From Antedon mediterranea (taxonomy: Eukaryota; Echinodermata; Crinoidea; Comatulida; Antedonidae): a stretch of 64,000 nt of DNA. Where the stretch lies: positions 2,638,312 through 2,702,311 of the forward strand of contig NC_092675.1 of assembly GCF_964355755.1 (NCBI RefSeq). Direction: 5' to 3'. A model generated the notes under the pieces. That model was not told the DNA's origin and searched no databases. It saw nothing but the letters and a program-made list of their open reading frames with translations. Numbering within the stretch: the first letter of the stretch is position 1; the number at the start of each line of letters is the position of its first letter. The translations under genes were made by a program, and so were the position numbers. Shown here piece by piece: positions 1,236-62,210 of this stretch.

Positions 1236-1281
1236 AATGAGCTTATAGATTTCCCGATCTATAGGTGTATATAAGCTCATT
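1236..1281. repeat. Short inverted repeat next to a TATA-like site
   Basis: AATGAGCTTATA (1236-1247) is followed by its exact reverse complement TATAAGCTCATT (1270-1281), with 22 nt between the 12-bp arms. The right arm overlaps a TATATAA sequence, so it may be part of the core promoter of the downstream KCTD-like gene or only a chance hairpin. Confidence 0.5.
1267..1275 (+). promoter_or_regulatory. Candidate TATA box of the KCTD-like gene
   Basis: GTATATAAG lies about 350 bp upstream of the preferred start codon. An initiator-like TCATCCAG follows about 30 bp downstream, near 1303. The spacing fits a TATA-Inr core promoter, but only sequence shape supports it. Confidence 0.3.
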
Positions 1282-1626
1282 CATATGTCTCATAAGTACA
1301 GTATCATCCAGTACAACCGCTAGGTAGGTAGATAATTTAATTTATGATTTCATTTTTGGATTACAATTTTTTATTTTTCTAGTTTAATGGAATTTAAACA
1401 AGTTATATTATTATTTATTATTTATTTATTTATTTTATTCAGTTGTCAACCAACAGCGATGAAACCGCCACTAACAGGTTGAATCTAAACATTGTTTTCG
1501 TTAGGGCCTACTGTTTTAAATGTTTGCGTATAATAGGCCTATAATAATTCGACTTGTGGACGAATGAAGTTATCTTATATCTTATTTTCTCTTAACTTAA
1601 TCACAATATTCATGTTTTCACCAGCC

Positions 1627-2601: not shown

Positions 2602-3598
2602 GAAAGGTTCAATAACAATACATTTACAAGTTCATACTTTAATTTAAAAACATAAAATATTAACAACTATAACATTACAAAATGTGATGTAACCACTCAA
2701 AATAATTCTATTTAAAATAATACAAAATCAAGTTTTGCTCTAAAACAACTTATGTATTTACCAATGTGGCATTATGAATTAGATCATCATGTGTTCACAA
2801 AGAAGTTTTATTTTATATAACTTTATTATTATTATTATTATTTCAATTATTTCCATTATTATATTTGGATTCTATGAAAGTTATAATGACATAAAAACAT
2901 AATAATACTAATGTATGATTATTGTATAAAGTGGGCACAATGGTCAACAATTTAATTGATTCATATGAATTAATATATAATAGCTCTTATAATATACAGA
3001 CTACATTTATTGTGTTATACTAAATAGAACTTATTCAAAAATAGCACCTACCGTATATTACGTAGCGAATTAAACTAATTATCTTTGTAAATAATCACAA
3101 AATATTCATTCAGACATTAATCAATTGATTTGCATTATATTATATTAATTTTCACTTTGTGTGTAATTGTATAGTTGTACTTTCCAATAAACAGCGTTCA
3201 AACTAAACAACTCTCTGCAACATCAATATTTTGTTTTTCTATAGTGATGATGTTTTGAGTTACATGCGAGGTGCACTTTTCTTTCCAAATCCCCTTTTTG
3301 ATGTATCCCCAAATATTTACCCCTTTTACTGTGCCAGCGGAGTAGTGGAATTGCATAACACTGGTCAATCATAACCAGGACAAAGAAATGAGGATCTATT
3401 TTTAAAACTTTATCCACATAAAAAAAATGATGCAAAGTGATTTATCTCAAATTTGTTCATTACAAATTATTCTTGTTTGGCAAAAATAATAATTCACCTT
3501 GTTAATGACAATTTCTGAGAATTTAAAGGACAACTTTACCGAGAACCATATTTTGACAAAAGCATCCCTACAGTAGAAAATGGTTTAGACAGCACAAT
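2602..3598. other. Convergent 3' region between the KCTD-like gene and SPG11
   Basis: This AT-rich stretch has no supported coding sequence and must hold both 3' UTRs, because the genes converge. An AATAAA at 3186-3191 could serve the + strand gene. TTTATT on the + strand near 3006 could be the polyadenylation signal of the minus-strand gene. Neither is proven. Confidence 0.45.
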
Positions 3599-6500: not shown

Positions 6501-9500
6501 GTGCTATTATATAATATATATATATATATGTAACACGCCGAGAGTGTTAAAGAGTCGCTATCCAATCGAGTTCGAACAATACCATGAAAGCCCCAGTGGT
6601 CTAATGGTTAGGACATCTGCATATCAAGCAGGCGGTCCGAGTTCGAGTCTCGGTTGGGGCGACTTTTTCTCATTCTCACAGATTTCCTCATCTTTATCGT
6701 TTCAAATTAATTAATTAAATTTCAGTATATCACCGGGCGGTTTAGAATTAATGTTCTTTGCCTGCTGTGTTTATATATATATGTTTTGGGTGTGTACAAG
6801 ACAAACTCTAAAAGTGAACCAAATTAGTGACTTCAGTAGTCGTTTTGTAGGCTGGAAGTACTGTATTTCTCTTGTGTATACAAGAGTTAATGAAGGGTGT
6901 GTTATAAAACAAATTCATTGCAACCTGTTCATGTCTTAGGCTAGACATTTGTTTCTACAAGCTGGTTGACATGAATTGAATTGGTACTCAGAAAAATGTA
7001 TGCTTTCTTTTTCTGAACGTCAGGTAGGCCTATATTAAAACTAATACGTAGTTGATTACTTTTGGTTTTAAATATTACATTCATAAGTAAAACATTGCAT
7101 CTATTGACTTGAATCACCTTTGATCCTATCTTGATAAGGTGTTCTAATTTCTTTGCTTTGTGCAGATATTCAAATGTGTACATCATCTCACTACAACGTC
7201 CAACTCCCATGATCAGGCGAATCTAGAAAAAAATATTTAAAATGTGAATATTAGCACAATACAATAATAATAAAATGAATAAAAAAGCCAACAGGCAGAG
7301 GTTGACAAGAACAGCGATTGGTAACTTTAAAAGGGCTACAGTAGCTTACTTCTTGATAGAAAATTCATAGTATTGAAAATTCTATACAAAGAAATATATT
7401 TTAGATAGATAAAGTTAAATATGATAGTTAAACACTGCTTAAGTGAGAAACATTATTTATCAAACCAGCTCTTTTGATCTTAAGGAATAAACTTTGTCAT
7501 CTAAGTTTTAACTTTTAAGAAAAAAACATTGCCCAAATATTTGCTTAGTTTAGTTTGAAAACTTAGTTTTGATGACTTTAATTCTTAAGCTCTGTCTACA
7601 CTATCAAACTTTATGTGACAACAAATGTGATGTGCTCATATATGGACAAGATGGATGTCATATCACTACCATATTTGGGCATATCACTACCATATTTGGG
7701 CACACTTTTTTGTCAAACTAGTTTGATAGTGTAGACAAAGCTTAAGCAAGATTGATAAAACTGTAGTGCAGGTTTACCATAAGTCTGTGCTCTTCAGCTT
7801 TGCCAAGCACCTGTGTACAATCCCTACACAGCCTAAGAACACTGGATATGCCTTCCATGTTACAGCAAATAGTGTGGCAGTCATGGGCTCGAATTATCAA
7901 TTCAACTTGAAGAGTGTGGGCTGAAACATTCAATGAAAATTATAAATAAATCATTCTGTATTGGTATCGCTTGTGTGCAAATTAAAACATACTACATAAT
8001 AGTAAAGATATCTTATCTTATTAGTAAAGATATCTTATCTTAATAGTAAAGATATCTTATCTTATAGCTACTGTACCTACTATATTAAAGCTTGTGTTCA
8101 ATATAATATCTTAAGCTCTATCTACACTATCAAACTAGTTTGACAAAACAAGTGTGGTGTGCCCAAATATGGTAGTGATTTGACATCATCAAGTCCCTAT
8201 AGTGTAGACAGAGCTTTACAATAAAAAATCAAGAGCTTTTCATTTCTAGTTCTATGATTGGTTTGAACTAACACTACACTTTACATTTGTACCATTTTTC
8301 TTTACAGTTAGGGGTGGATCGAGCATTATAGATTAGGGGTGGGGGGCTAAATATTTCATAAATGATAAAAACGATCTGTCAGGTTGCAGACAAAAAAAAG
8401 TCATTATTTTATTTTAAAAAGTTAAATTTCAGTGAGGGGGGAGTGACTAAATCCGCGCCGGGTTACCCCATAAGGATGGTATTTTTGGTAGAAGCAAGGT
8501 TGAAATTGTTACCAAGAGATAAAGGTGAAAGCAGAACAAGGCTAACTAGGCTTGTTGGAAGATTGGTTAATGACTTACCAATTTTAGAAGCTGATGGGTT
8601 ATCTAATAATGCCTTAGCTTCCTGAATAAGTCTGTTTCCAAGAGTAGCTGGGTTTTGACAAAGTTTTATAAACTTGGTTAACTCATCTTTATCTGATGGC
8701 TTTCTTGATAGTGGTACTTGTGAATCCAAAGCATGCCCTGAATTAAATAGTAATACCTCAGTGTAATACAACATTTGCAGCATGCTGTCAGCAAAGATCG
8801 GCCAAACAATACCCCTAAATATTACACTTGAAAGAACTAAACGCTTTATCGAAAATGATGGTGTCTTTAAGAACTGGTAGGCCATGTTTGAATTGCCAGT
8901 ATACATTAACCATTTTTCTAAGTCATTATTTCAATTAATTTACCTTGCTGTTGTTGTTCCGCCTTCAATGTCACCTGTTTGATAATCATATCTGCAAGGA
9001 AACTTGAGACCTATAAAAGTAAAAACCCACACTACAGGTAAATACAAATAAAAAATAATACAAACAGTGTTGGAATACACTCAGAATATATGAAAGTATA
9101 AACATATTACTAATATAAAAAAAGGCTTACATCAGCATCATTCATGCATGTAGTTTGTATAAACTCCTTAGCTGCTAAAAACTGCTGTGGCATGTTTGAC
9201 TGTAGTATGATTTTTAATGTTTCAATTGATGATTGTGTCACAATATCTTCATAGGTATAGTTTAAGATCTGTTAAGAAAAATAACAAAGGCTTGATTTCA
9301 TGATACTGTAAATTATTTATACTGTCTAATTAGAAGAATAATTCATATTTTCTGTTGGTGTGGTAGGTTAAAGGTTGGAGGTTAAAGGTTGGAGGTTAAA
9401 GGGGTGATGGTTGGGAAATTTATTTGCAACTCTGAGACTGTTTTCTTGTTCCTAAAGCTCTGTGTACACTATCAAACTTTATGTGTATCAGAAAAATGTG

Positions 9501-43005: not shown

Positions 43006-43379
43006 GAGGTATATTCAGAGCGTCATTTCGGAGCTATATTTCCTATACCATCCTGGCTAGTTGAGAATTCTCAACTATTTTATGTTTTTTTCTACCTTTC
43101 TGGAAAATGATATAATCCAAATTGTATTAATTCTACCAGTAGTAAACATTTAGAAACACTTGCATACATTCACTAATTTTAGTTGTTTGTAGTTTAAGAC
43201 AATCTTAGTGACATTTAAATGAAAACAATACGATAAAAACTATTGTGTCTGTATTTTACAAGACTATGACTTCCGTATAACGTGCATTGTGGGTACTTCA
43301 ATTTTTATAGAAAAGCTAGGGAATCCTAATTTAGTAGGCAGCATATGGGGGCGGGGCAACCAAACTTGCTTATCAAATC

Positions 43380-45775
43380 AAAGCACAGTAAAGCAAAGGA
43401 TAAAATTAATGTACGATCCAGTTTACCACTGTTCTCAACTATAGTCATTTTAGTATACTTGAGCACAGTGATAAAGAATAGGATAAACTTAACAATATAC
43501 AACAAATAACATTAATGCACGATCCCGTTTAACACTGTTCTCAACTATAGCCATTAATTTTGGTGTACTTGAGCACAGTGATAAAGAACAGGATAAACTT
43601 AACAATATACAACAACAATGTACGATCCCGTTTAACACTGTCCTCAACTATAGTCATTTTGGTATACTAGAGCACAGTGATAAAGAATAGGATAAACTTA
43701 ACAATATACAACAAATAACATTAATGTACGATCCAGTTTAACACTGTTCTCAACTATAGTCATTTTGGTATACTTGAGCACAGTGATAAAGAATAGGATA
43801 AACTTAATAATATACAACAAATAACATTAATGTACGATGTAGTTTAACACTGTTCTCAACTATAGTCATTTTGGTATACTTGAGCACAGTGATAAAGAAT
43901 GGGATAAACTTAATAATATACAACAAATAACATTAATGTACGATGTAGTTTAACACTGTTCTCGACTATAGTCATTTTGGTATACTTGAGCAAATTGATA
44001 AAGAATAGGATAAACTTAACAATATACAACAAATAACATCAATGTACGATCCCGTTTAACACTGTTCTCAACTATAGTCATTTTGGTATACTTGAGCACA
44101 GTGATAAAGAATAGGATAAACTTAATAATATACAACAAATAACATTAATGTATGATCCCGTTTAACACTGTTCTCAACTATAATCATTTTGTTATACTTG
44201 AGCACAGTGATAAAGAATAGGATAAACTTAATAATATACAACAAATAACATTAATGTATGATCCCGTTTAACACTGTTCTCAACTATAGTCATTTTGTTA
44301 TACTTGAGCACAGTGATAAAGAATAGGATAAACTTAATAATATACAACAAATAACATTAATGTACGATCCAGTTTAACACTGTTCTCAACTATAGTCATT
44401 TTGGTATACTTGAGAACAGTGATAAAGAATAGGATAAACTTAATAATATACAACAAATAACATTAATGTACGATCCAGTTTAACACTGTTCTCAACTATA
44501 GTCATTTTGGTATGATTTGATTTGATTTGATTTATTTCGGCATCAGTACATAAAATATCACAGACATACAATTAAATTAATCAAGTATAAAAATACCAAA
44601 ATAAAACAAGGATGCCAAGGATAACTCATAAAAGTCCTCTACGGACTTATTTCCAATGAGGTCCTTTGAAAGAACAGCAAAAAGACAAACAATGCAACAA
44701 ATAAAAATTACAAAAAACAGCATACTTGAGCACAGTGATAAAGAATAGGATAAACTTAACAATATACAACAAAAAACATTAATGTACGATCCCGTTTAAC
44801 ACTGTTCTCAACTATAGTCATTTTGGTATACTTGAGCACAGTGATAAAGAATAGGATAAACTTAATAATATACAACAAATAACATTAATGTACGATCCAG
44901 TTTACCACTGTTCTCAACTATAGTCATTTTGGTATACTTGAGCACAGTGATAAAGAATAGGATAAACTTAACAATATACAACAAATAGCATTAATGTACG
45001 ATCCAGTTTAACACTGTTCTCAACTATAGTCATTTTGGTATACTTGAGAACAGTGATAAAGAATAGGATAAACTTAACAATATACAACAAAAAACATTAA
45101 TGTACGATCCAGTTTAACACTGTTCTCAACTATAGTCATTTTGGTATACTTGAGAACAGTTATAAAGAATAGGATAAACTTAACAATATGCAACAAAAAA
45201 CATTAATGTACGATCCCGTTTAACACTGTTCTCAACTATAGTCATTTTGGTATACTTGAGCACAGTGATAAAGAATAGGATAAACTTAATAATATACAAC
45301 AAATAACATTAATGTACGATCCAGTTTACCACTGTTCTCAACTATAGTCATTTTGGTATACTTGAGCACAGTGATAAAGAATAGGATAAACTTAAAAATA
45401 TACAACAAAAAACATTAATGTACGATCCAGTTTAACACTGTTCTCAACTACAGTCATTTTGGTATACTAGAGCACAATGATAAAGAATAGGATAAACTTA
45501 ATAATATACAACAAATAACATTAATGTACGATCCAGTTTAACACTGTTCTCAACTATAGTCATTTTGGTATACTTGAGCACAGTGATAAAGAATAGGATA
45601 AACTTAACAATATACAACAAAAAACATTAATGTACGATCCCGTTTACCACTGTTCTCAACTATAGTCATTTTGGTATACTTGAGCACAATATACAACAAA
45701 TAACATTAATGTACACGATTCTGTTTAACACTGTTCTCAACTATAGTCATTTTCATATACTTGAGCACAGTGATA
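43380..45775 (+). repeat. 106-bp tandem array, forward (E1 left arm)
   Basis: About 22 units. Each contains CACTGTTCTCAACTATAGTC, ATTTTGGTATACTTGAGCAC and AGTGATAAAGAATAGGATAA, then an AT-rich linker ending ATTAATGTACGATCC. The first two parts form an imperfect palindrome around ATTTTGG. Units are highly similar, so the array is young or homogenised. Confidence 0.92.
44514..44722 (-). mobile_element. LINE 3' end inserted in the E1 array
   Basis: Read on the minus strand, it ends AAATAAATCAAATCAAATCA, a tandem tail, and carries CATTGGAAATAAGT and GAGTTATCC as in the 3' UTR of the 13-16.5 kb LINE. It interrupts one array unit (break at TTTTGGTAT / ACTTGAGCAC) and is younger than the array. Confidence 0.65.
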
Positions 45776-46920
45776 ATATGAAAAACATAATAACACTATA
45801 ATATTTGTAGATGAATGACGCGGACACGTACATATTATGTTCATAAGTAATTGATATAAATTGACTTTTAAAAGTGGAATTAACACAAATGGTTGTAGAT
45901 AAATATGACGTGAAATGATTGTAGATAAACATGACGTGAATTGCACGTACATTATGTTGATGAGTAGTATATATAAATCGACTTTGAAAAGTGAAATAAC
46001 ACTAATATTTGTAGATGAATATGACGTGGACACGTACATATATTGATTAGTATATTGATATAAATCGACTTTTAAAAGTCAAATTAACACTAATATTTGT
46101 AGATGAATATGACTTGGACACGATTTACATATGTTGATGAGTATATTGATATAAATCGACTTTTAAAAGTGAAATAACACTAATATTTGTAGAAGAATAT
46201 GACGTACATATATACGGTACATAATGTTGAATATGACTTGGACACGATTTACATAATGTTGATGAGTATATTGATATAAATCGACTTTTAAAAGTCAAAT
46301 AACACTAATATTTGTAGATGAATATGACGTACATATATACGGTACATAATGTTGATGAGTATATTGATATAAATCGACTTTTAAAAGTGAAATAACACTA
46401 TTGATTGTAGACGTGAATTGCACGTACATAATGTTGATGAGTGTATTGTTATAAATCGACTAAACGTTAAATAACACTATCTTGTACAAGTACCCTCACT
46501 TGCACTGATGAAGGGCTAGTGTTGCCCGAAAACTCTGCTAACTTTTCTGGCTGTTTTAATTTATCGTTTTGATTTAGCTTTTCGCTTCTTTTTTTGTATC
46601 TCCATTGAGACCACAGCATTGTTATTATTTCAGTATTTTGCCTTTGGATTTACTAATATTAAAAGTGAAATAACACTAATAACTGTAGATGATATGACAT
46701 TTATGTTGATGTATATATTTTTGTATATATAATATGCACACGTACATACGTTGATAGGTATTGATATAAATAGATTTTTAAAAGTACGGTAATAGACACT
46801 TTATTTGTAGATGAATACGACATGGACAAGTTGCAATAAATTCTATCGTTATATCGTATGTTGATGAGTATTGATATAAATCGACTTTTTTTAAAGTGGA
46901 ATAACACTAAAATGTATAGA
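45776..46920 (+). repeat. Second tandem repeat in the E1 spacer
   Basis: Degenerate units of about 85-105 bp contain GATATAAATCGACTTTTAAA, AGTGAAATAACACTAATATT and TGTAGATGAATATGACGT. Each carries the palindrome ACTTTTAAAAGT. The array is interrupted at 46480-46660. Confidence 0.75.
46480..46660 (+). mobile_element. Penelope-like element end with a possible hammerhead motif
   Basis: ACTGATGAAGGGCTAGTG followed by TTGCCCGAAAACTCTGC contains the hammerhead core boxes CTGATGA and GAAA around a GGGC/GCCC stem. This arrangement is known from ends of Penelope-like retroelements. Stems I and III are not convincing by eye. The insertion splits the spacer array. Confidence 0.4.
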
Positions 46921-47344
46921 TGGATATGGCCTCAACAAGTATTGTATTAAGCGGTACTGTATATTGATATACTTCATACCTGTAATGTCAATGAAATCTG
47001 GCAACAAGAATTGTGTTTGATCCTCCTAATAGTATTCTAATATTATCTTGGTTTGTAAAGGAGGCATGAAAAATCTAAACGCATAGCCAGGGGAGGGGTT
47101 GGAGTTTCCTACGGTTTTTGTGAACTTTTTAGTAGCGTGCAAACGTGACTCTACAGCTCACTATGTCGGTCGGTCGGTCGGTAAACACCAACTCAAATTT
47201 GAGCACGCGACTGCAGCCATGTTTATACTATGGCCTGTTTATACTAGAAATCAGCAGTGAAAGTATATTTAAATAATATGTGTTAATATAGAATTAGTTT
47301 TTTTTATTTAATAAATAGTATTAAAGTTGATCTTATTCTTTATC
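46921..47344. other. Central spacer of E1
   Basis: No open frame is recognisable. It includes a (GGTC)n tract near 47163-47182. This is where a transposase gene would be expected in a complete element, and none is present. Confidence 0.45.
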
Positions 47345-49850
47345 TGTGATTAATTATACTCAAATGACTGTAGTTTAAAACAGTATTAAACGGCATCGTA
47401 CATTAATGTTATTTTCTGTTAATTCGAAAATATACCAAAATGACTATAATTTAGAACAGGGTTAAACTGGATCGTACATTAATGTTATTTGTTGTATATT
47501 GTTAAGTTTATCCTATTCTTTATCACTGTAGTTTAAGTATACCAAAATGACTATAGTTGAGAACAGTGTTAAACGGGATCGTACATTAATGCTATTTGTT
47601 GTATATTATTAAGTTTATCCTATTCTTTATCACTGTGCTCAAGTATACCAAAATGACTATAGTTGAGAACAGTGTTAAACGGGATCGTACATTAATTCTA
47701 TTTGTTGTATATTATTAAGTTTATCCTATTCTTTATCACTGTAGCTTAAGTATACCAAAATGACTATAGTTGAGAACAGTGTTAAACGGGATCGTACATT
47801 AATGTTATTTGTTGTATATTGTTAAGTTTATCCTATTCTTTATCACTGTGCTCTAGTATACCAAAATGACTATAGTTGAGAACAGTGTTAAACGGGATCG
47901 TACATTAATGCTATTTGTTGTATATTATTAAGTTTATCCTATTCTTTATCACTGTGCTCAAGTATACCAAAATGACTATAGTTGAGAACAGTGTTAAACG
48001 GGATCGTACATTAATGCTATTTGTTGTATATTATTAAGTTTATCCTATTCTTTATCACTGTAGCTTAAGTATACCAAAATGACTATAGTTGAGAACAGTG
48101 TTAAACGGGATCGTACATTAATGCTATTTGTTGTATATTATTAAGTTTATCCTATTCTTTATCACTGTGCTCAAGTATACCAAAATGAATATAGTTGAGA
48201 ACAGTGTTAAACGGGATCGTACATTAATGCTATTTGTTGTATATTATTAAGTTTATCCTATTCTTTATCACTGTGCTCAAGTATACCAAAATGACTATAG
48301 TTGAGAACAGTGTTAAACGGGATCGTACATTAATGCTATTTGTTGTATATTATTAAGTTTATCCTATTCTTTATCACTGTAGCTTAAGTATACCAAAATG
48401 ACTATAGTTGAGAACAGTGTTAAACGGGATCGTACATTAATGTTATTTGTTGTATATTATTAAGTTTATCCTATTCTTTATCACTGTAGCTTAAGTATAC
48501 CAAAATGACTATAGTTGAGAACAGTGTTAAACGGCATCGTACATTAATGTTATTTGTTGTATATTGTTAAGTTTATCCTATTCTTTATCACTGTGCTCAA
48601 GTATACCAAAATGACTATAGTTGAGAACAGTGTTAAACGGGATCATACATTAATGTTATTTGTTGTATATTGTTAAGTTTATCCTATTCTTTATCACTGT
48701 TCTCAAGTATACCAAAATGACTATAGTTGAGAACAGTGTTAAACTGGATCGTACATTAATGTTATTTGTTGTATATTATTAAGTTTATCCTATTTTTTAT
48801 CACTGTGCTCAAGTATACCAAAATGACTATAGTTGAGAACAGTGTTAAACGGGATCGTACATTAATGTTATTTGTTGTATATTATTAAGTTTATCCTATT
48901 CTTTATCACTGTAGCTTAAGTATACCAAAATGACTATAGTTGAGAACAGTGTTAAACGGGATCGTACATTAATGTTATTTGTTGTATATTGTTAAGTTTA
49001 TCCTATTCTTTATCACTGTGCTCAAGTATACCAAAATGACTATAGTTGAGAACAGTGTTAAACGGGATCGTACATTAATGTTATTTGTTGTATATTGTTA
49101 AGTTTATCCTATTCTTTATCACTGTGCTCAAGTATACCAAAATGACTATAGTTGAGAACAGTGTTAAACGGGATCGTACATTAATGTTATTTGTTGTATA
49201 TTGTTAAGTTTATCCTATTCTTTATCACTGTGCTCAAGTATACCAAAATGACTATAGTTGAGAACAGTGTTAAACGGGATCATACATTAATGTTGTATAT
49301 TGTTAAGTTTATCCTATTCTTTATCACTGTTCTCAAGTATACCAAAATGACTATAGTTGAGAACAGTGTTAAACTGGATCGTACATTAATGTTTTTTGTT
49401 GTATATTGTTAAGTTTATCCTATTCTTTATCACTGTGCTCAAGTATACCAAAATGACTATAGTTGAGAACAGTGTTAAACTGGATCGTACATTAATGTTA
49501 TTTGTTGTATATTATTAAGTTTATCCTATTCTTTATCACTGTGCTCTAGTATACCAAAATGACTATAGTTGAGGACAGTGTTAAACGGGATCGTACATTG
49601 TTGTTGTATATTGTTAAGTTTATCCTGTTCTTTATCACTGTGCTCAAGTACACCAAAATTAATGGCTATAGTTGAGAACAGTGTTAAACGGGATCGTGCA
49701 TTAATGTTATTTGTTGTATATTGTTAAGTTTATCCTATTCTTTATCACTGTTCTCAAGTATACCAAAATCACTATAGTTGAGAACAGTGTTACACTACAT
49801 CGTACATTAATGTTATTTGTTGTATATTGTTAAGTGTATTCTTTATTCTT
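47345..49850 (-). repeat. 106-bp tandem array, inverted (E1 right arm)
   Basis: About 23 units that are the reverse complement of the 43.4-45.8 kb array: GGATCGTACATTAATGTTAT, CCTATTCTTTATCACTGTGC, CAAAATGACTATAGTTGAGA. The two arms could pair over more than 2 kb. Short open frames here are repeat artefacts. Confidence 0.92.
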
Positions 49851-50179
49851 ATTAATTGTACTAAATTATTAAAAGAAACAGTAGTAAGCATAACATTTCC
49901 CCACTCCTACATTAGCATGGTAGGACATTGTAATGGTCGCAGGTGGCTCAACTTTATTACTGCAATGGGATGGACATGGTCCTACTACCACCTTACCATC
50001 CAATAGGATTCCAGTAAATTTCCTTTACTACCAATCATAATTCAGTAATTAAATGACCCCTTAAGTTAACAAGGAAATCAGCCTATCCCATTATACCGGT
50101 AGGCTTCGTCGTACAGGCGTACTGCGGTAATAGTTGAGAATTCTCAACTAGCCAATTTGGTATATTTTATATACCTGCA

Positions 50180-51845
50180 TTTCGACGATCGAGCATTCTC
50201 TACTTCTACGGAACGCCATTTATGCCTTTATTTACTTCCGGAATAGAAATAGTACTACGGTATTCAGTGGACCAAATTTAGCACCAGTGGAGCACAGTGA
50301 TATGAAATAGAAATAAGTCACTAATTTTAATATCTTTTCGTATGTTAATACACTGGACCCAATTTGGAGCCAGTGGAGCACAGTGATATATAAATAGAAA
50401 CAAGTCATTGAATGTTAATATCTTTTCGTATGCTAATACACTGTGCTCAAGTGGACACAATTTGGAGCCAGTGGAGCACAGCGATATAATAGAAATAAGT
50501 CACTAATTTTAATATCGTTTCGTATGTTATTACATTGTGCTCATGTTAGGTCTGGGGACCTTGTAGCTATTTTAAACAGTTTGGTAAGCCCTGCGTTGTT
50601 ATGCAAATGAGTTTGTGCAGGTGTAATAGGGAAGATGGTATAGTTAGTCCTACGCGGTGAACACGCCATAAAATTAAATTTAAAAGTTAAATTTTGATTT
50701 TGTTAATCTTTATTAGAAATTCAAATCATGTAAAGATTCAATTTTCCGGGCGGGAATCTAGAAACTCCCCTCCTTAAGTTTACAAAAGTAATCTTGAAAA
50801 GAACCCCATGTGGAAAAAAAAAGCTTATCCGTTGAAAAGAAGCCACCGTACTAAAGAGTACTAAAAATGAGGAACATTCGGGGTGTTATGGTGTCTATTT
50901 AATGGAAAAATGAATGCCATACACTTTTGTTTATGATTTAGGGTCCACTTGCCTAGGCCTGACATTTTCAACCCTCCGAATATCTCTCTTTAAAAAAAAC
51001 CAATAGGCCTATTCATTAAAAAAAAAATATCCGTAGAGGTTCGAACCCCAGCTGTCACTCAAAACTGAGCATTACCCGCACCACAAACTGAAACATGACT
51101 GAACAGCTGATAATTGTCTATTTATAAGTGTATTACGTAATTCATCATTACATCATAAATATCCTATTAATCTTGATAAAACCAAAATGATCAGTTAGCT
51201 CAGTCGCCTGAGCGTCGTGTTGACAACACGTATGTCGTGGATTCGATTCCCACGCTGGTCGGTAGAATAGAGTTAAAGGTATGCGACCACTGTGTTTGGG
51301 GTCCATAGAATTGTACGTCCCCCTTTCCACCACACATCTTGAGAAGGCACTAGCAATGCATCTGGTAATGATGTGGTAGAAACGAACCCAAGGCTGCTGC
51401 AGGACCCTTAGTGCTGAGGCAAAGAGAGCACAATTTTTACTCTTTTTTTTTGGCTTTTGCTACATGTATTTGATCTCGTAAATTTTATGTTTAGCGGCCT
51501 CAATTTTAATGTAAAAATTGTTATCACTGAGCTTGACTGGCGCCAAATTGGGTCCATTTGAGCACATTTTATTAACAATAAACATACGAAAAGATATTAA
51601 AAAGCAGTGACTTATTTCTATTTTATATCACTGTGCTTCACTGGTGCCAAATTTGGTCCACTTGAGCACAGTGTATTAACATATGAAAATATATTCAAAT
51701 TAGTGACTTATTTTTATTCTATATCACTGTACTCCACCGGTGGCCAATTTGATCCACTGGACCGGTTACCGAAGTACTATTTCTATTTCTGAAGTAAATA
51801 AAGGCATAAATGGCGCTCCGTAGAAAAGTAGAGAATGCTCCATTG
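50180..51845. mobile_element. Foldback-like element E2
   Basis: Outer arms 50191-50260 and 51771-51840 are inverted copies (CATTTATGCCTTTATTTACT on one side, its complement on the other). Inside are short tandem arrays in opposite orientation (50275-50545 and 51525-51760). Array units of 86-98 bp carry CAGTGGAGCACAGTGATAT, AATTTGG and AGAAATAAGTCACTAATTTT. It is the smallest of the three and sits exactly between E1 and E3. Confidence 0.7.
51189..51261 (+). tRNA. tRNA-like sequence, anticodon GAC, probably a SINE head
   Basis: The acceptor GATCAGT pairs with GCTGGTC (51254-51260), including G-T pairs. The D stem is GCTC/GAGC. The anticodon arm TCGTG-TTGACAA-CACGT has one mismatch; the anticodon GAC at 51222-51224 would be valine. 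The T arm is GTGGA-TTCGATT-CCCAC with one mismatch. GAC is rarely used for valine in animals, and a SINE-like body follows to about 51440, so a SINE is more likely than a true tRNA gene. Confidence 0.5.
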
Positions 51846-52249
51846 TCAGAGAATGACCTCTAAATATACGAGCTATATATCCAATACCAAATTGGCGAGT
51901 AAATCATGTTTTACTTTAAATTAAATTTATACGCTCTTCCACAAGGTCAATTGTTAGTTATACATACAGACTATATTAAAACAATGATTTTGAACACGTA
52001 GGGCATTTCTTTGAATTCTTTCCTATTGTCGTTTTGTGGTAATTTACAGCTTTTTATATGTTTAACAAACGTACATAATCAATTGCGTCTGCATCATGCT
52101 AGACTACAACTTCCGGTAGTGACGTAATCAGCATATTTTTGGTAATAAAACTTTTTCACTAAGCTAGGGAATCTTCTGATATCAATATTCATTAGACCGT
52201 ACTTTAGTTAGCCAATCAAAATAAACGTATAAACAATTTTGCGGTGATG

Positions 52250-55200
52250 TTACATGTTGTTGAGGTAAAATATACTGTGTTTTACAATAACCAATTTGGT
52301 TAGAGTAAAACACGATGAAAAAGAATAGGAAACATTTAATAATATGATAAATGACATTTACATAGCAATTTATCACTGTGTTTTACTATAACCAATTTGG
52401 TTAGAGTAAAACACAATAATAAAGAATAGGAAACGTTTAATAATATGATAAATGTCATTACATAGCAATTTATCACTGTGTTTTACTATAGCCAATTTGG
52501 TTAGAGTAAAACACAATGATATAGAATAGGAAACATTTAATAATATGATAAATGACATTTACATAGCAATTTAGCACTGTGTTTTACTATAAACAATTTG
52601 GTTAAAGTAAAGCAGAATGATAAAGAATAGGAATTTAATAATATGATATATGACATTCACATAGCAATTTAGCACTGTGTTTTACTATAACCAATTTGGT
52701 TAGAGTAAAACACAATGATAAAGAATAGGAAACATTTAATAATATGATATATGACATTTACATAGCAATTTAGCACTGTGTTTTACTATAACCAATTTGG
52801 TTAAAGTAAAACACAATGAAAAGAATAGGAAACATTTAATAATATGATAAATGACATTTACATAGCAATTTAGCACTGTGTTTTACTATAACCAATTTGG
52901 TTAAAGTAAAGCAGAATGATAAAGAATAGGAATTTAATAATATGATATATGACATTTACATAGCAATTTAGCACTGTGTTTTACTATAACCAATTTGGTT
53001 AGAGTAAAACACAATGATAAAGAATAGAAAACATTTAATAATAATGATTATTTACATAGCAATTTAGCACTGTGTTTTACTATAACCAATTTGGTTAGTA
53101 AAACACAATGATATAGAATAGGAAACATTTAATAATATGATAAATGACATTTACATAGCAATTTATCACTGTGTTTTACTATAACCAATTTGGTTATGGT
53201 AAAGCACAATGATATAGAATAGGAAACATTTAATAATATGATAAATGACATTTACATAGCAATTTAGCACTGTGTTTTACTATAACCAATTTGGTTAAAG
53301 TAAAACATAATGATAAAGAATAGGAAACATTTAATAATTTAATAAATGACATTTACATAGCAATTTAGCACTGTGTTTTACTAAAACCAATTTGGTTATG
53401 GTAAAGCACAATGATATAGAATAGGAAACATTTAATAATATGATAAATGACTTACATAGCAATTTAGCACTGTGTTTTACTATAAACAATTTGGTTAAAG
53501 TAAAACACAATGATAAAGAATATGAAACATTTAATAATTTGATAAATGACATTCACATAGCACATTAGCATTGTGTTTTACTATAACCAATTTGGTTATG
53601 GTAAAGCACAATGATAAAGAATAGGAAACATTTAATAACATGATAAATGACATTTACATAGCAATTTAGCACTGTGTTTTACTATAACCAATTTCGTTAT
53701 GGTAAAGCACAATGATATAGAATAGGAAACATTTAATAATATGATAAATGACATTTACATAGCAATTTATCACTGTGTTTTACTATAACCAATTTGGTTA
53801 AAGTAAAACACAATGATAAAGAATAGGAAACATTTAATAATATGATAAATGACATTTACATAGCAATTTAGCACTGTGTTTTACTATAACCAATTTGGTT
53901 AAAGTAAAGCAGAATGATAAAGAATAGGAATTTAATAATATGATATATGACATTTACATAGCAATTTAGCACTGTGTTTTACTATAACCAATTTGGTTAG
54001 AGTAAAACACAATGATAAAGAATAGGAAACATTTAATAATTTGATAAATGACATTCACATAGCAATTTAGCACTGTGTTTTACTATAACCAATTTGGTTA
54101 GAGTAAAACACAATGATAAAGAATAGGAAACATTTAATAATATGATATATGACATTTACATAGCAATTTAGCACTGTGTTTTACTATAACCAATTTGGTT
54201 AAAGTAAAACACAATGAAAAGAATAGGAAACATTTAATAATATGATAAATGACATTTACATAGCAATTTAGCACTGTGTTTTACTATAACCAATTTGGTT
54301 AAAGTAAAGCAGAATGATAAAGAATAGGAATTTAATAATATGATATATGACATTTACATAGCAATTTAGCACTGTGTTTTACTATAACCAATTTGGTTAG
54401 AGTAAAACACAATGATAAAGAATAGAAAACATTTAATAATAATGATTATTTACATAGCAATTTAGCACTGTGTTTTACTATAACCAATTTGGTTAGTAAA
54501 ACACAATGATATAGAATAGGAAACATTTAATAATATGATAAATGACATTTACATAGCAATTTATCACTGTGTTTTACTATAACCAATTTGGTTATGGTAA
54601 AGCACAATGATATAGAATAGGAAACATTTAATAATATGATAAATGACATTTACATAGCAATTTAGCACTGTGTTTTACTATAACCAATTTGGTTAAAGTA
54701 AAACATAATGATAAAGAATAGGAAACATTTAATAATTTAATAAATGACATTTACATAGCAATTTAGCACTGTGTTTTACTATAACCAATTTGGTTATGGT
54801 AAAGCACAATGATATAGAATAGGAAACATTTAATAATATGATAAATGACTTACATAGCAATTTAGCACTGTGTTTTACTATAAACAATTTGGTTAAAGTA
54901 AAACACAATGATAAAGAATATGAAACATTTAATAATTTGATAAATGACATTCACATAGCACATTAGCATTGTGTTTTACTATAACCAATTTGGTTATGGT
55001 AAAGCACAATGATAAAGAATAGGAAACATTTAATAACATGATAAATGACATTTACATAGCAATTTAGCACTGTGTTTTACTATAACCAATTTCGTTATGG
55101 TAAAGCACAATGATATAGAATAGGAAACATTTAATAATATGATAAATGACATTTACATAGCAATTTATCACTGTGTTTTACTATAACCAATTTGGTTAAA

Positions 55201-56880
55201 GTAAAACACAATGATAAAGAATAGGAAACATTTAATAATATGATAAATGACATTTACATAGCAATTTAGCACTGTGTTTTACTATAACCAATTTGGTTAA
55301 AGTAAAGCAGAATGATAAAGAATAGGAATTTAATAATATGATATATGACATTTACATAGCAATTTAGCACTGTGTTTTACTATAACCAATTTGGTTAGAG
55401 TAAAACACAATGATAAAGAATAGGAAACATTTAATAATTTGATAAATGACATTCACATAGCAATTTAGCACTGTGTTTTACTATAACCAATTTGGTTATG
55501 GTAAAGCACAATGATATAGAATAGGAAACATTTAATAATATGATAAATGACATTTACATAGCAATTAGCACTGTGTTTTACTATAACCAATTTGGTTATG
55601 GTAAAGCACAATGATATAGAATAGGAAACATTTAATAATATGATAAATGACATTTACATAGCAATTTAGCACTGTGTTTTACTATAACCAATTCGGTTAT
55701 GGTAAAGCACAATGATATAGAATAGGAAACATTTAATAATAATGATTATTTACATAGCAATTTATTACTGTGTTTTACTATAACCAATTTGATTATGGTA
55801 AAACACAATGATAAAGAATAGGAAACATTTAATAATAATGATTATTTACATAGCAATTTAGCACCATGTTTTACTATAACCAATTTGGTTAGAGTAAAAC
55901 ACAATGACAAAGAATAGGAAACATTTAATAATATGATAAATGACATTTACATAGCAATTTAGCACTGTGATTTACTATAAACAATTTGGTTAAAGTAAAG
56001 CAGAATGATAAAGAATAGGAATTTAATAATATGATATATGACATTTACATAGCAATTTAGCACTGTGTTTTACTATAACCAATTTGGTTAGAGTAAAACA
56101 CAATGATAAAGAATAGGAAACATTTAATAATATGATATATGACATTTACATAGCAATTTAGCACTGTGTTTTACTATAACCAATTCGGTTATGGTAAAGC
56201 ACAATGATATAGAATACTAAACATTTAATAATAATGATTATTTACATAGCAATTTATCACTGTGTTTTACTATAACCAATTTGATTATGGTAAAACACAA
56301 TGATAAAGAATAGGAAACATTTAATAATAATGATTATTTACATAGCAATTTAGCACCATGTTTTACTATAACCAATTTGGTTAGAGTAAAACACAATGAT
56401 AAAGAATAGGAAACATTTAATAATAATGATTATTTACATAGCAATTTAGCACAATGTTTTACTATAATCAATTTGATTAGAGTAAAACACAATGATATAG
56501 AATAGGAACATTTAATAACATGATAAATGACATTCACATAGAAATTTAGCACTGTGTTTTACTATAACCAATTTGATTAGAGTAAAGCACAATGATAAAG
56601 AATAGGAAACATTTAATAATATGATAAATGACATTTACATAGTAATTTATCACTGTGTTTTACTATAACCAATTTGGTTAGAGTAAAACATTTTAACTAT
56701 GATAAATGATATTTAGCACTGTGCTGGATACAGTAAAACACAAATAAAGAATAGGAAACATATAATAATATGATACATTTACATACAAATTTAGTATTGT
56801 GTTTTACTATAGCCAATTTGGTTACAGTAAAACACAATGATAATGAAACATTTATTATATGATGTTATTTACATAGCAAA
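52250..56880 (+). repeat. ~101-bp tandem array, forward (E3 left arm)
   Basis: About 46 units of the form GCACTGTGTTTTACTATAAC, CAATTTGGTTAGAGTAAAAC, ACAATGATAAAGAATAGGAA, then an AT-rich linker with ATGACATTTACATAGCAATT. Unit variants (AGAGTAAAAC, AAAGTAAAGC, TATGGTAAAGC) recur in the same order about 1.4 kb apart, showing a higher-order duplication. All short frames here are artefacts. Confidence 0.92.
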
Positions 56881-57047
56881 ATATTATATTAAGTATATCT
56901 TATTATCTAAACGTTACGATAAAGAATAGGATAATGTAATAATATAATAAATACAAGTTACATAGTTTATCATCTTGTTTTACAGAACCAATTTGGTGAC
57001 ACAGTTAAACACAGTGATAAAGAATAGATACTGTACTGTTTTAGGTT

Positions 57048-57442
57048 ATATAACCCTAACCCTAGTTTGAAGCGACATAATAAATTCATCGCGAAAAAGT
57101 ACGTATCGTATTCAGAAACTTTTGAAATTTGTTAGATATGTTTAATAGGTTCTTACGTCTATAAAACAAACAAAAAATATAAATTTCACGAAAAATTCGT
57201 GATTTTAATAATTTGCATTTCTCAAAATGTACACTTATGAAATACCATACATTTTCCAACACATTTTTACTTCATTGATGATTCCCAGAAATCAAAATAA
57301 AACAAATTATGATATTTCTTTTACATTATAGATGTAAGAACCTATATTGAACATGTACCAAATGTCAAACGTTTTTTAAGACGATACGTATTTTTATCGA
57401 TGAATTAAGTATGTGATCGCTTCAAACTAGGGTTAGGGTTAA
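57048..57442. mobile_element. Palindromic element with telomere-like ends, copy 1
   Basis: Starts CCCTAACCCTAGTTTGAAGC and ends GCTTCAAACTAGGGTTAGGG. The arms stay complementary for over 80 bp (CGTATCGT..., GGTTCTTAC...). No coding capacity. It interrupts the array region of E3. Confidence 0.75.
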
Positions 57443-57665
57443 ATAACCTAACAGTTCCATTCTTTAACACCGTGTTTAACTTTTAACCAAATTGGTTTTA
57501 GTACAACACAATGATAAACTATGTACATTTTATTTTTCATATTACATTATAGGATACATATAATTTAATAATAATAAATACAAGTTACATAGTTTATCAT
57601 CTTGTTTTACAGAACCAATTTGGTTACACAGTTAAACACAGTGATAAAGAATAGACACTGTTTTA

Positions 57666-58070
57666 GGTTATATAACTCTAACCCTAGTTTGAAGCGATCA
57701 CATACTTAATTCATCGCGAAAAAATACGTATCGTATTCAGAAACATTTGAAATTTGGTAAATATGTTCAATAGGTTCTTACGTCTATAAAACAAACAAAA
57801 AATAAAAGTTTCAAGACAAATTCGTGATTTTAATAATTTGCATTTCTAAACATTTACACTTATGAAAGACAATACATTTCCAACACATTTTTACTTCATT
57901 GATGATTCCCAGAAATCAAAATAAAACTATTAGGATATTTCTTTTGCATTATAGATGTAAGAACCTATATTGAACATATCTACCAAATATCAAACGTTTT
58001 TCAAAACGATACGTATTCTTAGCGATGAATATTAAATATGTGATCGCTTCAAACTAGGGTTAGGGTTAAA
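57666..58070. mobile_element. Palindromic element with telomere-like ends, copy 2
   Basis: Same ends and interior as copy 1 with scattered changes. The left end has one TAACTCTAACCCTAG variant. The flanking GTTATATAA and TTAAATAA stretches also resemble those of copy 1, which may mean that the pair duplicated together with flanking DNA. Confidence 0.73.
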
Positions 58071-58389
58071 TAAACTAAAACAGTTTTATTCTTTATCACT
58101 CACAGTGTTTAACTTTTAACCAAAATGGTTATAGTAAAACACAATGATAAACGTATATGTAAATTTTATTTTTCATAACATAAAATGTTTGATATTCTTT
58201 ATAATATTTAATATTATATTTTAGGCCTACTATTAATGACGTATAAATGCACACTACATCTGAAATAACTTTCTACTTCATTGGCGATTCTTACCAAAAA
58301 AAAGAACTAATTTTGTTATGTATATAGAGCAACCTATTATAACATGTCTTGTATGATTTTTATCTCGTTTCAATGACATTTTATACTAC

Positions 58390-58665
58390 AATTCAAATGA
58401 AAAAGCATCACAAAAAAATACGTCTGGTATTCAAAAAGTTTCTAAACTCGGTACACAGAAAAAACGAATATGTTGAAAATGTATGGTCTTTCATAAGTGT
58501 GAATTTTTAGAAATGCAAATAATGGAAGTCATCAATTTGTCTTGAAATTTATAATTTGTTTTGTCTTATTGAACATATCTATACAACATTTCAAACGTTT
58601 CTGAATACGATACGCGAAAAGTGTTGTGTAAACGAACGTTTTTTACGCTTCAAATTTTCTGTTAC
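58390..58665. mobile_element. Diverged relative of the telomere-ended palindromic element
   Basis: TCTTTCATAAGTGTGAATTT and AGAAATGCAAATAAT are the reverse complement of interior parts of copies 1 and 2. The telomere-like ends are lost. Confidence 0.45.
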
Positions 58666-58696
58666 ATTATGTTTGAATTGAAGCTACAGATATTGA

Positions 58697-58735
58697 ATCA
58701 TGGACCTATAAATTAGTAATTTATAGGTCCATGAT
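58697..58735. repeat. Perfect 39-nt hairpin palindrome
   Basis: ATCATGGACCTATAAATTA at 58697-58715 and its exact complement at 58717-58735 are separated by a single G. Such a perfect snapback could be a replication or excision product. Confidence 0.85.
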
Positions 58736-58977
58736 TGAACATATCGTCACTCACCACACATTTTTTGTTTTGTATTTCGAAAGTATTTATTCTAAAGAAC
58801 AATTGATGCAAACATCAACTGCGCATCTTATTTCATTAATTAATTATATTAATTACAATTTGGCGATTATTCGTCACACGAAGCGTCGAATATCGATTCG
58901 TCTCGTCATGGGAAGAAAACGTGCATTGCGCACACTGTTTACGCGCCTCAACAATAAACGGCGAATATGCGATTCGT

Positions 58978-59880
58978 CACTAATTATGGAACGCCGTTTT
59001 ACACAAGTTTTTGGCGATGATAAAAATTGCGTCGATGATGAAATTGCGTCGATGAAAATTGCATCGACGCAATGTAGATTGCGTCGACGCAATTTACATT
59101 GCGTCGATGAAAATTGCATCGATGAAATTTGCGTCGATGAAAATTGCGTCGATGAAAACTGCATCGATGAAAATTGCGTCGATGAAAACTGCATCGATGA
59201 AAATTGATTTGATGAATTTAATTGATTATGAAAATTCCAAATGGTTTTAATTCAATCAATGATGAAATGACTACTAGTAAAGTAAATGATGATGTTAATA
59301 ATGATGTTAATAATGTTATTATGTTGCTAAAAATTGACGGTTTCTGAATATTTTGATATGATAAACATGTTTACCGCTTGCGCTAGCGCGCGTTATAGAC
59401 AAGCGCACAGTGAGCGCGCACTAAAACAATGTTGAAATATATGCACTGATTAACATTTTAGTGATTTATTGTCAACACATTTTAGCAATGGATCCATTAT
59501 TGTCCTTTCGGACACATTATATCTTCTAGCTAATTGCTTCCGTTAATCCACCAGTTCAGTACATAAAATTCAGATGTCCAGCATCCATGACATCATATTC
59601 AAATCATACCGGCAGGGAGATCGCAATTTTCATCGATGCAGTTTTCATCGATGCAGTTTTTATCGACGCAATTTTCATCGACGCAATTTTCATCACATTA
59701 ACGCAATTTTCATTACATCGACGCAATTTTCATCGACGCAATGTTCATCACATCGACTTAAATTTTCATTACATCAATACTATATTCATCGACGCAATTT
59801 TCATCACATCGACGCAATTTTCATTGCATCATCGACGCGATTTTATCATCGCCTAAACTGGCATTCCATACTAATTGCGT
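58978..59880. mobile_element. Small foldback element E4 with 15-bp subrepeats
   Basis: Arms of 15-bp tandem units, GCGTCGATGAAAATT and variants (59029-59215), face the inverted array AATTTTCATCGACGC (59620-59850) across a 400-bp spacer. Outside the arrays, GGCGATGATAAAAATTGCGT and TAATTATGGAACGCC have inverted counterparts near 59850-59875. The 15-bp unit length is also that described for the outer domain of sea urchin TU foldback elements. It is nested in the spacer of E3. Confidence 0.75.
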
Positions 59881-60229
59881 GTGATCTGATTGGTGTATTA
59901 TAAATAAATTCATCGCGATGAATTTTTCAGTAGATGTAATGAGACAGTTCAGTAGATGTAATGACAGTTAATTTAATTGTTCTGCTCTTTTTGTACAAAT
60001 CTATAATACTTTATATTATGGATTTTGTAGTACTGTTAAAATTATTAAATCTCTGGAAGTGTGTTTTACGAGTATGTCCGCAAATTTATGCGTTTACGGT
60101 TTTAAAATGTGAGTTTTAAATAGCGAACATGATCTTGTTAGGTGCACTCTTACTAATTGGGAGAAAATCATATTGTACCATATCATATTATATCCATTCT
60201 TTAAATTCATATTCTTTATCCAAAACTAA

Positions 60230-61370
60230 ATTGGTATAGTAAAACACAGTGCTAGCAATTTATCATATTATTAAATGTTTCATATTCTTTATCATTGTGT
60301 TTTACTCTAATAAAATTGGTATAGTAAAACACAGTGCTAAATTGCTATGTGAATGTCATTTATCATATTTTTAAATGTTTCCTATTCTTTATCATTGTGT
60401 TTAACTCTAACCAAATTGGTTATAGTAAAACACAGTGCTAAATTGCTATGTAAATGTAATTTATCATATTATTAAATGTTTCCTATTCTTTATCATTGTG
60501 TTTTACTCTAACCAAATTGGTTATAGTAAAACACAGTGATAAATTGCTATGTAAATGTAATTTATCATATTATTAAATGTTTCCTATTCTTTATCATTGT
60601 GTTTTACTCTAACCAAATTGGTTATAGTAAAACACAGTGATAAATTGCTATGTAAATGTAATTTATCATGTTATTAAATGTTTCCTATTCTTTATCGTTG
60701 AGTTTTACTCTAATCAAATTGGTTATAGTAAAACACAGTGCTAAATTGCTATGTAAATGTCATTTATCATATTATTAAATGTTTCCTATCCTTTATCATT
60801 GTGTTTTACTCTAACCAAATTGGTTATAGTAAAACATTGTGCTAAATTGCTATGTAAATGTTATATATCATATTATTAAATGTTTCCTATTCTTTATGAT
60901 TGTGTTTTACTCTAATCTGATTGGTTATAGTAAAACACAGTGCTAAATTGCTATGTGAATGTCATTTATCATGTTATTAAATGTTTCCTATTCTTTATCA
61001 TTGTGCTTTACTCTAACCAAATTAGTTATAGTAAAACACAGTGCTAAATTGCTATGTAAATGTCATTTATCATGTTATTAAATGTTTCTTATTCTTTATC
61101 ATTGTGTTTTACTCTAACCAAATTGGTTATAGTAAAACACAGTGCTAAATTGCTATGTAAATGTAATTTATCATATTATTAAATGTTTCCTATTCTTTAT
61201 CATTGTGTTTTACTCTAACCAAATTGGTTATAATTTATTTAATTTCATTTCAAAAGACATTTACCTAAATTTATATTTAAATGTCATTTATCAAATTATT
61301 AAATGTTTCCTAATATTTATCTGGTTATATAGTAAAACACTGTGCTAAATTGCTATTGTATTAAGGACGA
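60230..61370 (-). repeat. ~101-bp tandem array, inverted (E3 right arm)
   Basis: About 11 units complementary to the 52.2-56.9 kb array: TTTCCTATTCTTTATCATTG, TGTTTTACTCTAACCAAATT, GGTTATAGTAAAACACAGTG. The right arm is much shorter than the left, so the element is asymmetric. Confidence 0.92.
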
Positions 61371-61589
61371 GTTCCGAGAAGATGTATTCAAAGCTACAAC
61401 CAATCAGAACAGTGTTAATCAATATAGTCCATGGCTACAACCAATCAGAAACGTCCAAATCGCAATAACCCCTAGGCTAATAGAAATTATTGGTCCGAGT
61501 AGCCTTTTCAACCAGACGTTGCGAGGTTTAAAAAGTAAAACATGATTTACTCGCCAGTTTGGTATAGTTTATATACCTGAATATACCTC

Positions 61590-61738: not shown

Positions 61739-61783
61739 ATGTCTTTCTCTGGATTAAAAAAACAAATAAACAAGGCGAATCAG
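61739..61783 (+). CDS. SH3GL: Endophilin-A (SH3GL), first coding exon
   Basis: Fifteen codons, MSFSGLKKQINKANQ, followed by a perfect donor CAG|GTAAGA. Endophilin-A proteins begin with this amphipathic H0 helix (M..AGLKKQ...KA.Q) of the N-BAR domain, and human SH3GL genes break at the same glutamine. The helix inserts into membranes during synaptic vesicle and clathrin-mediated endocytosis; the BAR and SH3 domains must lie beyond the window. The exon is too short for an ORF search to report. Vertebrates have three paralogues (SH3GL1-3), so one letter more is not justified. Confidence 0.82.
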
Positions 61784-62210
61784 GTAAGACCGTCTACTGC
61801 CTACCTAGTAGGCTAGTCCTATAGGCCTACTAGAGAACTTTGAAGAGGCCTAGCCTAGCTAGTAGGCCTAGCTAGCCAGGCTACCTAGGCCCTATAGACC
61901 CTAGTTGTAGGCCTACTAATCTATCTATTACTAACTAGGTCTACAGTAGGCTTAGTCTAGGCTAGGCTAAAACCATTTTCTAGGCCTTACTCTACTTTCT
62001 ACTACTACTATGCCTAGAGGGTAGGCTAGGCTAGAGTAGAATGCTAGCTCTAGGCTATCTATCTAGGCCTAGGGCTAGTCTTTTTCCGCTGCAACTGCTG
62101 GCTGGCCCTACTTTAGCTGATTTTTTATTAGTTTGTTATGAATATAAAGGATAATTGGTATAGAGAGTTTTGCAAAAAACATGTGAATATAGGCCTAGGC
62201 CTAATCTTGG
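61784..62210. repeat. TAGGCCTA/CTAG-rich segment of the endophilin first intron
   Basis: Dense overlapping words of the type TAGGCCTA, CCTAGG and GCTAGCC, all self-complementary, stand in otherwise AT-rich sequence. Scattered single copies occur elsewhere in the window. Confidence 0.6.

Follow-up and report, generated by a model that had tools for sequence, protein, structure and literature searches.

Matching half-sites at the termini and in the palindromic arrays of two sister foldback transposon families in the crinoid Antedon mediterranea

Here, we describe two foldback-type DNA transposons, E1 and E3, in a 64,000-nucleotide stretch of the Antedon mediterranea genome (NCBI RefSeq assembly GCF_964355755.1, contig NC_092675.1, positions 2,638,312 to 2,702,311; hereafter the window, C6:2638312-2702311). 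E1 and E3 are separate elements with 7-bp target-site duplications (TSDs) that are related as sister families; in each of them the termini and the long internal arrays carry matched half-sites, and in both families the array units are spaced more widely than the termini. Our reading, to which we give a probability of about 0.6, is that a transposase reads both the end module and the array units, and that a change in its specificity between the sister families kept the two kinds of site matched. Binding, its role and selection are what we infer here from these observations. The genome searched comprises 354 Mb in 18 contigs, nearly all of it in 11 large contigs.

Both elements lie on the forward strand of the window as non-autonomous foldback-type DNA transposons, E1 at 43031..50177 and E3 at 51870..61579, with borders fixed by comparing the window with 40 stretches around chosen E1 and E3 ends. 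E1 is flanked by the duplication CATTTCG (left copy at 43024..43030 (+), right copy at 50178-50184) and E3 by AATATAC (51863..51869 (+) and 61580-61586). Since exact 7-bp duplications flank each of them, E1 and E3 are independent cut-and-paste insertions, located within both ends of a third foldback element, E2, that encloses them, and a single composite E1-E2-E3 element was rejected on the same grounds. Across the genome, an exact 7-bp TSD was found in 16 of the 18 end pairs tested (10/12 for E1 and 6/6 for E3), and none was recognised in the other two. This fixed length, together with long inverted repeats of tandem units and a middle domain, agrees with what defines a foldback element. The left arm of E1 carries the terminal inverted half-site pair TAGTTGAGAA/TTCTCAACTA (43058..43077, +; 104 exact sites genome-wide) and continues into an array of 106-bp palindromic units at 43400..45769 (+), which is interrupted by a foreign insert near 44515-44720 as judged by eye. 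The inverted array of 106-bp units on the right lies at 47431..49839 (-), with degenerate units from near 47340 (by eye), and the right terminal half-site pair at 50131..50150 (-), the terminal motif being TAGTTGAGAATTCTCAACTA at both ends. In E3, the terminal half-site pair GAGTAAATCATGTTTTACTTT lies at 51897..51917 (+) and, reversed, at 61532..61552 (-), and the 101-bp palindromic units fill 52274..56690 (+) and, inverted, 60257..61232 (-). The window arrays hold about 10 to 45 anchored units per arm.

The edges of E1 and E3 lie 27 bp outside the half-site, as GAGCTATAT at the left end and CAGGTATAT at the right end. The left end of both elements starts with GAGCTATATWTCCWATACCA and the right end, read inwards, with CAGGTATATAAAMTATACCA; then follow NNNTGGC and the family-specific half-site, and the sequence flanking the terminal motifs varies between copies. 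The outer frame that the first-pass annotation of the window had described as shared is thus indeed common to E1 and E3, but it is not the edge of the element, which lies 27 bp further out, and its core is not confined to the ends.

Beside a CCAAATTGG-like core, the half-site reads AGTTGAGAA in E1 and AGTAAAACA in E3. Within the window, the E1 10-mer TTCTCAACTA occurs exactly in 37 of 42 anchored units and within one mismatch in 40, and the E3 9-mer TGTTTTACT exactly in 54 of 55 anchored units and within one mismatch in all 55. The earlier statement that the terminal half-site recurs in the units stands for E3, and for E1 it was slightly too strong only in saying every unit. The remaining 45,200 window bases contain zero E1 10-mers, zero E3 11-mers and one TGTTTTACT. 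The units are imperfect palindromes whose two half-sites point outward from the CCAAATTGG-like core, whereas a terminus has one core followed by two half-sites that face each other, and this terminal pair forms a perfect palindrome in E1 and a near palindrome in E3 despite the different letters. The CCAAATTGG-like core of the frame is also found in the middle of the array units, so that the similarity between terminus and unit extends over about 27 positions and not 10. The right end of E1 can be aligned with its own unit along 27 bases, with 3 mismatched positions and one 2-base gap (score 18, 0/300 shuffles as good). For the right end of E3 and its own unit the alignment covers 26 bases; it too has 3 mismatches and, at the corresponding position, a 2-base gap, plus a 1-base gap (score 15, 5/300 shuffles). 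Against the unit of the other family both right ends score 11. From core to half-site the distance is 2 bp at the termini, compared with 3 (13 units) or 4 (14 units) in the left array of E1 in the window and 4 (51 units) or 2 (2 units) in that of E3.

The match extends to copies elsewhere in the genome. Ends were classified by their terminus and by the half-sites in up to 840 further bases inward, and were taken from the head of the match lists and by pairs, not at random; the resulting 63 rows represent 62 distinct ends (L004 and L043 are the same end), and L040, with a damaged frame, gave no row. An E1 terminus was accompanied by E1 sites in 36 rows (including ends of the E1 derivative E4, below) and an E3 terminus by E3 sites in 21. 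The others were E1 termini with no site (3), E1 termini with more E3 than E1 sites (2) and a deleted terminus with an E1 array (1). An array of the matching type is present in 55 of the 63 rows, rather than 57, because both rows of the arrayless locus L055 count the opposite terminus. The three E1-type ends without an internal site correspond to a foreign insert (L010), to just 243 bp of available sequence (L030) and to an E4 end (L049). Half-sites of the opposite type made up 6/136 within E1 ends and 0/125 within E3 ends, all six coming from two loci. One is L031, where an E3 is inserted about 0.8 kb inside an E1 end and the counted E3-type sites are the terminus of that E3. The other, L001 (C1:57780-58900) continued by L074 (C1:58901-62400), is a true mosaic: it opens with an E1 left end and one E1 unit, passes into an E3-type array within the next unit spacer, and goes on to an E2 array and finally an E2 end. 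By the terms of the first-pass annotation it counts as a mismatch, although the first unit still matches its E1 end. No TSD was recognised around the mosaic. Its make-up suggests exchange or template switching between foldback families. The random mismatch of terminus and array types that the first-pass annotation had set against its own proposal was thus not seen in the frame-bounded copies examined.

Searches with the half-site left open returned few other states. The left frame was found in 267 places at up to 3 mismatches (27 in the reversed control), and the 100 listed of these were all mismatch-free and all of E1 or E3 type. For the right frame there were 571 places (238 in the reversed control), the 100 listed being E1, E3, E4 (9) and a few damaged E1 ends. 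When both half-sites were excluded from the pattern, the left frame gave 5 places (2 in the control), of which one is an E3 end with slight divergence and the rest were read as noise. The right frame gave 15 against 3, namely 11 E4 ends, 2 damaged E1 ends, one place read as noise and one solo end (C10:19804367) whose half-site differs and which has no array within the 5 kb read. Within the reach of these searches, the half-sites in this frame fall into two main states in the genome rather than many. E4 (L047-L053; 8 ends in 7 loci read) is a derivative of E1 with the half-site TATTGAGAA that mostly has constant flanks within a larger repeat, and two E4 copies lie about 2.2 kb apart in L051.

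Further arrangements of the two families were seen among the loci read. A short arrayless foldback at L055 (C10:7470150-7471050) consists of two E3 left ends with the 7-bp TSD ACTGAAG, and suggests that the E3 left end can serve at both sides. Copies of E1 and E3 stand close together at L013, L030, L031, L033 and L005 as well as in the window, these loci having been chosen because they were listed close. At L013, L030 and L033 the left ends are head to head, some tens of bases apart, with an E1 TSD in two of the three pairs and an E3 TSD in the one tested. E1 sits at an end of E2 in both L005 and the window.

The left subterminal regions of E1 and E3 align with a score of 55.0 against a dinucleotide-shuffle maximum of 41.5, and their unit spacers with 23.5 against 20.0 (300 shuffles each). 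The spacers of E2 align with neither, and a derivation of the units from E2 throughout was rejected on this basis. Most likely, E1 and E3 are sister families descended from one element that already bore wide-spaced arrays. Because the unit spacers are homologous and the wider spacing is found in both families, the units look older than the E1/E3 split, and the half-site looks to have changed after it, at ends and arrays alike. Between the half-sites of E1 and E3, 4 of 9 positions differ; all four of these differences recur in both the E3 unit and the inner terminal arm, and three of them in the outer arm, which bears out the earlier observation that the half-site differs alike at the ends and in the units. 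In a simulation of independent change, such matches were reached in 0.00008 of trials for the inner arm and 0.007 for the outer arm, under a simple model with the E1 form assumed to be ancestral.

In the mechanism that we propose, the DNA-binding domain of the transposase would bind the terminal module through one core and two facing half-sites, and the same domain would bind the palindromic array units through one core and two outward half-sites, so that the arrays would raise the concentration of transposase at the element and assist in pairing its two ends. The specificity of the protein would have changed between the E1 and E3 lineages, with variant half-sites kept at the termini and propagated along the arrays through unequal exchange or gap repair, and this spread would keep ends and units matched. 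That one DNA-binding protein, most likely the transposase, must read both kinds of site would be the simplest account of the sequences. A bolder version is doubtful in our judgement, although conceivable: within this one genome, the DNA-binding specificity of the transposase would have completed a switch. The same 4 of 9 positions would then have been rewritten at both termini and at dozens of palindromic internal sites (3 of the 4 on the outer terminal arm), with core, spacing and unit spacer left as they were; the sister families would no longer share sites, and the long arrays would act as a specificity device.

The first-pass annotation had offered recognition by a protein and amplification of the units from the ends as alternatives. 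We favour recognition by one protein over fresh amplification because the units seem to predate the split and the half-site appears to have changed later at the ends and in the arrays. If, after the E1/E3 split, the ends of each family had been the source for renewed amplification or gene conversion of its units, no protein would be needed, and the likeness of terminus and unit over about 27 positions would follow; exchange between families does occur, as in the L001/L074 mosaic, and the repeats of Tetris are thought to have been duplicated from its outer domain (PMC4079207). Such a history is nevertheless improbable given the homologous unit spacers of E1 and E3 and the wider spacing of units than of termini in both families, and a conversion tract would need to break off after only a few bases. 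Amplification from the ends that preceded the split is possible and fully compatible with the conserved spacer and the difference in spacing. We also consider it unlikely, if somewhat less so, that the match is neutral inheritance, in which each family descends from one founder with ends and first units matched by chance, the arrays were then homogenised and nothing reads the half-site now. The ends are near-identical among copies of a family, the palindrome has no significant excess of conservation and no transposase was found in the copies scanned, all of which suit this view, but the same changes at ends and units are improbable if independent, as the simulation indicates, and the terminal pair is palindromic in both families, perfectly in E1 and nearly so in E3, despite the differing letters. 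Very improbable, finally, is that a host factor, for example an architectural or silencing protein, reads the half-sites and the arrays are satellite-like passengers: array lengths do differ between copies, and about 10 to 45 anchored units per side are more than transposition should need, but a matching module stands at both transposon ends, 27 bp from the borders. This distance from the element border is a usual place for transposase contacts.

Several results weigh against recognition by a transposase of matched ends and arrays. The co-change is effectively one contrast between two lineages, because only two families are involved and each has spread by the copying of a single element; the dozens of matching units to which the first-pass annotation had pointed do match, but they do not count as that many independent events. 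Between E1 and E3, the right subterminal regions give no convincing alignment (13/300 shuffles as good), and the left ends match their own units less well than the right ends, with a score of 13 for E1 (1/300 shuffles as good) and a weak 12 for E3 (36/300). The second half-site of E1 units, ACTTGAGCA, equals one of the two E2 half-sites, so the half-sites, which do differ between E1 and E3, are not strictly element-specific as had been claimed, and E2 has arrays of its own but no half-site at its very end. In full units (232 of E1, 172 of E3 and 65 of E2), conservation of the palindrome compared with the spacer was 0.982 vs 0.960 in E1, 0.964 vs 0.941 in E3 and 0.938 vs 0.957 in E2, and the palindrome ranked 12/106, 17/101 and 79/97, respectively, among circular shifts. 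These differences are not significant, and stronger conservation of the half-site was accordingly rejected as proof of selection. The autonomous, transposase-encoding relative that the first-pass annotation had proposed to look for was not found in the E1, E3 and E2 copies and P-like loci examined. The 12 P-like loci fetched had no E1 or E3 ends or arrays, with matches of 11 to 16 bases, and 0/34 P-type places fell inside the 78 E1/E3 intervals paired among the matches listed.

The E1 copies L041-L044 contained nested inserts but no recognisable transposase frame, and the frames scanned from them, or one window frame, gave no transposase Pfam match. The E3 stretches L045-L046 and L062-L064 held nested inserts and no recognisable transposase frame, and neither their scanned frames nor a 176-aa window frame matched Pfam, and no transposase was recognised in E2 copies. 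The Pfam scan covered 19 of 24 frames from E1, E3 and E2 copies and returned a single match, to a reverse-transcriptase zinc finger, in L044. The genome contains P-type transposase sequences (PF21788 in 12 places, PF21787 in 35). One P-like locus, L077 (C11:13871600-13880000), contains at 257-6580 a P-superfamily transposon with 32-bp terminal inverted repeats (TIRs) and the 7-bp TSD GATACCG; its TIRs contain GAGGTATA, the word that opens E2, and its protein matches TNP-like_RNaseH_N, with zf-AD below the curated cut-off. The longest stray match at the P-like loci, 16 bases of E3 unit spacer in L077 (E 1.5e-4, A+T-rich), was taken as chance. Among the 4 P-type proteins scanned, zf-AD appeared below the curated cut-off in 2 and THAP in none. 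An open 794-aa frame with the same P-type match occurs at L056, L057 and C8:6208441, and this family was ruled out as the autonomous partner of E1 and E3 by its different TIR (TGAGACAACAATCAAAGAGATTGG in the two copies fetched). At L080 (C3:13617000-13625000), positions 3593-7297 hold inverted arrays of 16-bp GGGCGACTTTGCGATG-like repeats that flank a fragment of a P-type transposase; this is a candidate for a P-superfamily element with repetitive ends in the same genome.

Foldback elements of the Mutator superfamily have TSDs of about 8-11 bp, and in E1 and E3 the TSD is 7 bp in all 16 pairs that have one. Of the P superfamily and Galileo, TSDs of 7-8 bp are characteristic, and here exactly 7 bp was found in 16 of 18 pairs; a P-type transposase encoded by E1 or E3, or by an element sharing their ends, was not found in the places examined. 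From the 7-bp TSD, the likeliest mobiliser would be a P-superfamily (Galileo-like) transposase, a proposal to which we give even odds. We do not claim membership of the P superfamily, because no P-type locus examined was linked to E1 or E3 ends or arrays.

The enclosing element E2 spans about 43006..61589 (strand not assigned), its ends having been placed by eye against L005 and L065-L069. Its own sequence in the window comprises 43006-43030, about 50178-51869 and the last bases to 61589, with the TIR GAGGTATATTCAGAGCGTC. A left array remnant of about 88-97-bp units with the half-sites ACTTGAGCA and AGTGGAGCA lies at 50286..50543 (+) and an inverted right remnant at 51522..51758 (-); other E2 copies have the TIR GAGGTATATTCAGAGCGTC and inverted arrays with units of about 97 bp. 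No TSD was recognised for the window copy, and of three copies tested for a duplication, L068 has one of 6 to 8 bp (ACTAAAG, the length depending on border placement) and the other two none. Within E2, the stretch at 51190-51265 appears tRNA-like by eye. Within E3, a nested inverted-repeat element at 58985-59875 has 15-bp repeats (GATGAAAATTGCGTC) and ATGGAACGCC-like ends (by eye), and an element resembling it breaks a P-like frame in L061 (by eye). Just to the right of E2, 61741-61785 begins with what we take by eye to be a resemblance to the endophilin N-terminus (MSFSGLKKQINKANQ).

The foldback elements of sea urchins (TU) differ from E1 and E3 in their short tandem units and 8-bp TSDs. Like E1 and E3, they are foldback elements of an echinoderm (cited in PMC4079207). 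A close precedent, by analogy, is Galileo of Drosophila, a member of the P superfamily with mostly 7-bp TSDs (PMC4168063) and long, internally repetitive TIRs, of which the outer about 40 bp are common to subfamilies and the inner part is family-specific (PMC3688188, PMC4168063). The THAP domain of Galileo-G has a binding site at 63-80 bp from the end and further ones in two of four internal repeats, outside the shared terminal ~40 bp, and binding across subfamilies ranges from significant (D. ananassae) through weak to none (PMC3688188). The layout of E1 and E3 appears to follow the same logic, with long repetitive TIRs, 7-bp TSDs, a shared outer segment and a putative terminal site that recurs in internal repeats. 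They differ from Galileo-G, with its four long repeats and sites in two, in having about 10-45 palindromic units per arm and a half-site 27 bp from the end, and from Galileo in that no transposase is linked to their ends. In Tetris/DAIBAM of Drosophila virilis, a 37-bp stretch recurs, at about 80% similarity, in both the tandem repeats of the TIRs and the outer domain, and as in E1 and E3 the foldback is non-autonomous and the terminal portions are common to two elements; Tetris has TSDs of 8-10 bp and repeats of about 220 bp, unlike E1 and E3, and the available part of that report describes no switch between sister families (PMC4079207).

The first-pass annotation knew of no description of such a pattern. 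Among the titles and opening lines of abstracts searched, neither these families nor such a half-site switch are described, the nearest cases being Galileo and Tetris; the principle itself has precedents in these two systems (PMC3688188, PMC4079207). What appears to be new from the sequences is the scale of palindromic units per arm, the comparison of two sister families with their context preserved, and their co-occurrence in a single genome. It is unsettled why some transposons have long, repetitive ends. In this regard, two sisters with different putative half-sites in a retained context within one genome constitute a natural swap experiment, which could be used to test the effect of the arrays on specificity, the insulation between families and the joint change of dozens of sites.

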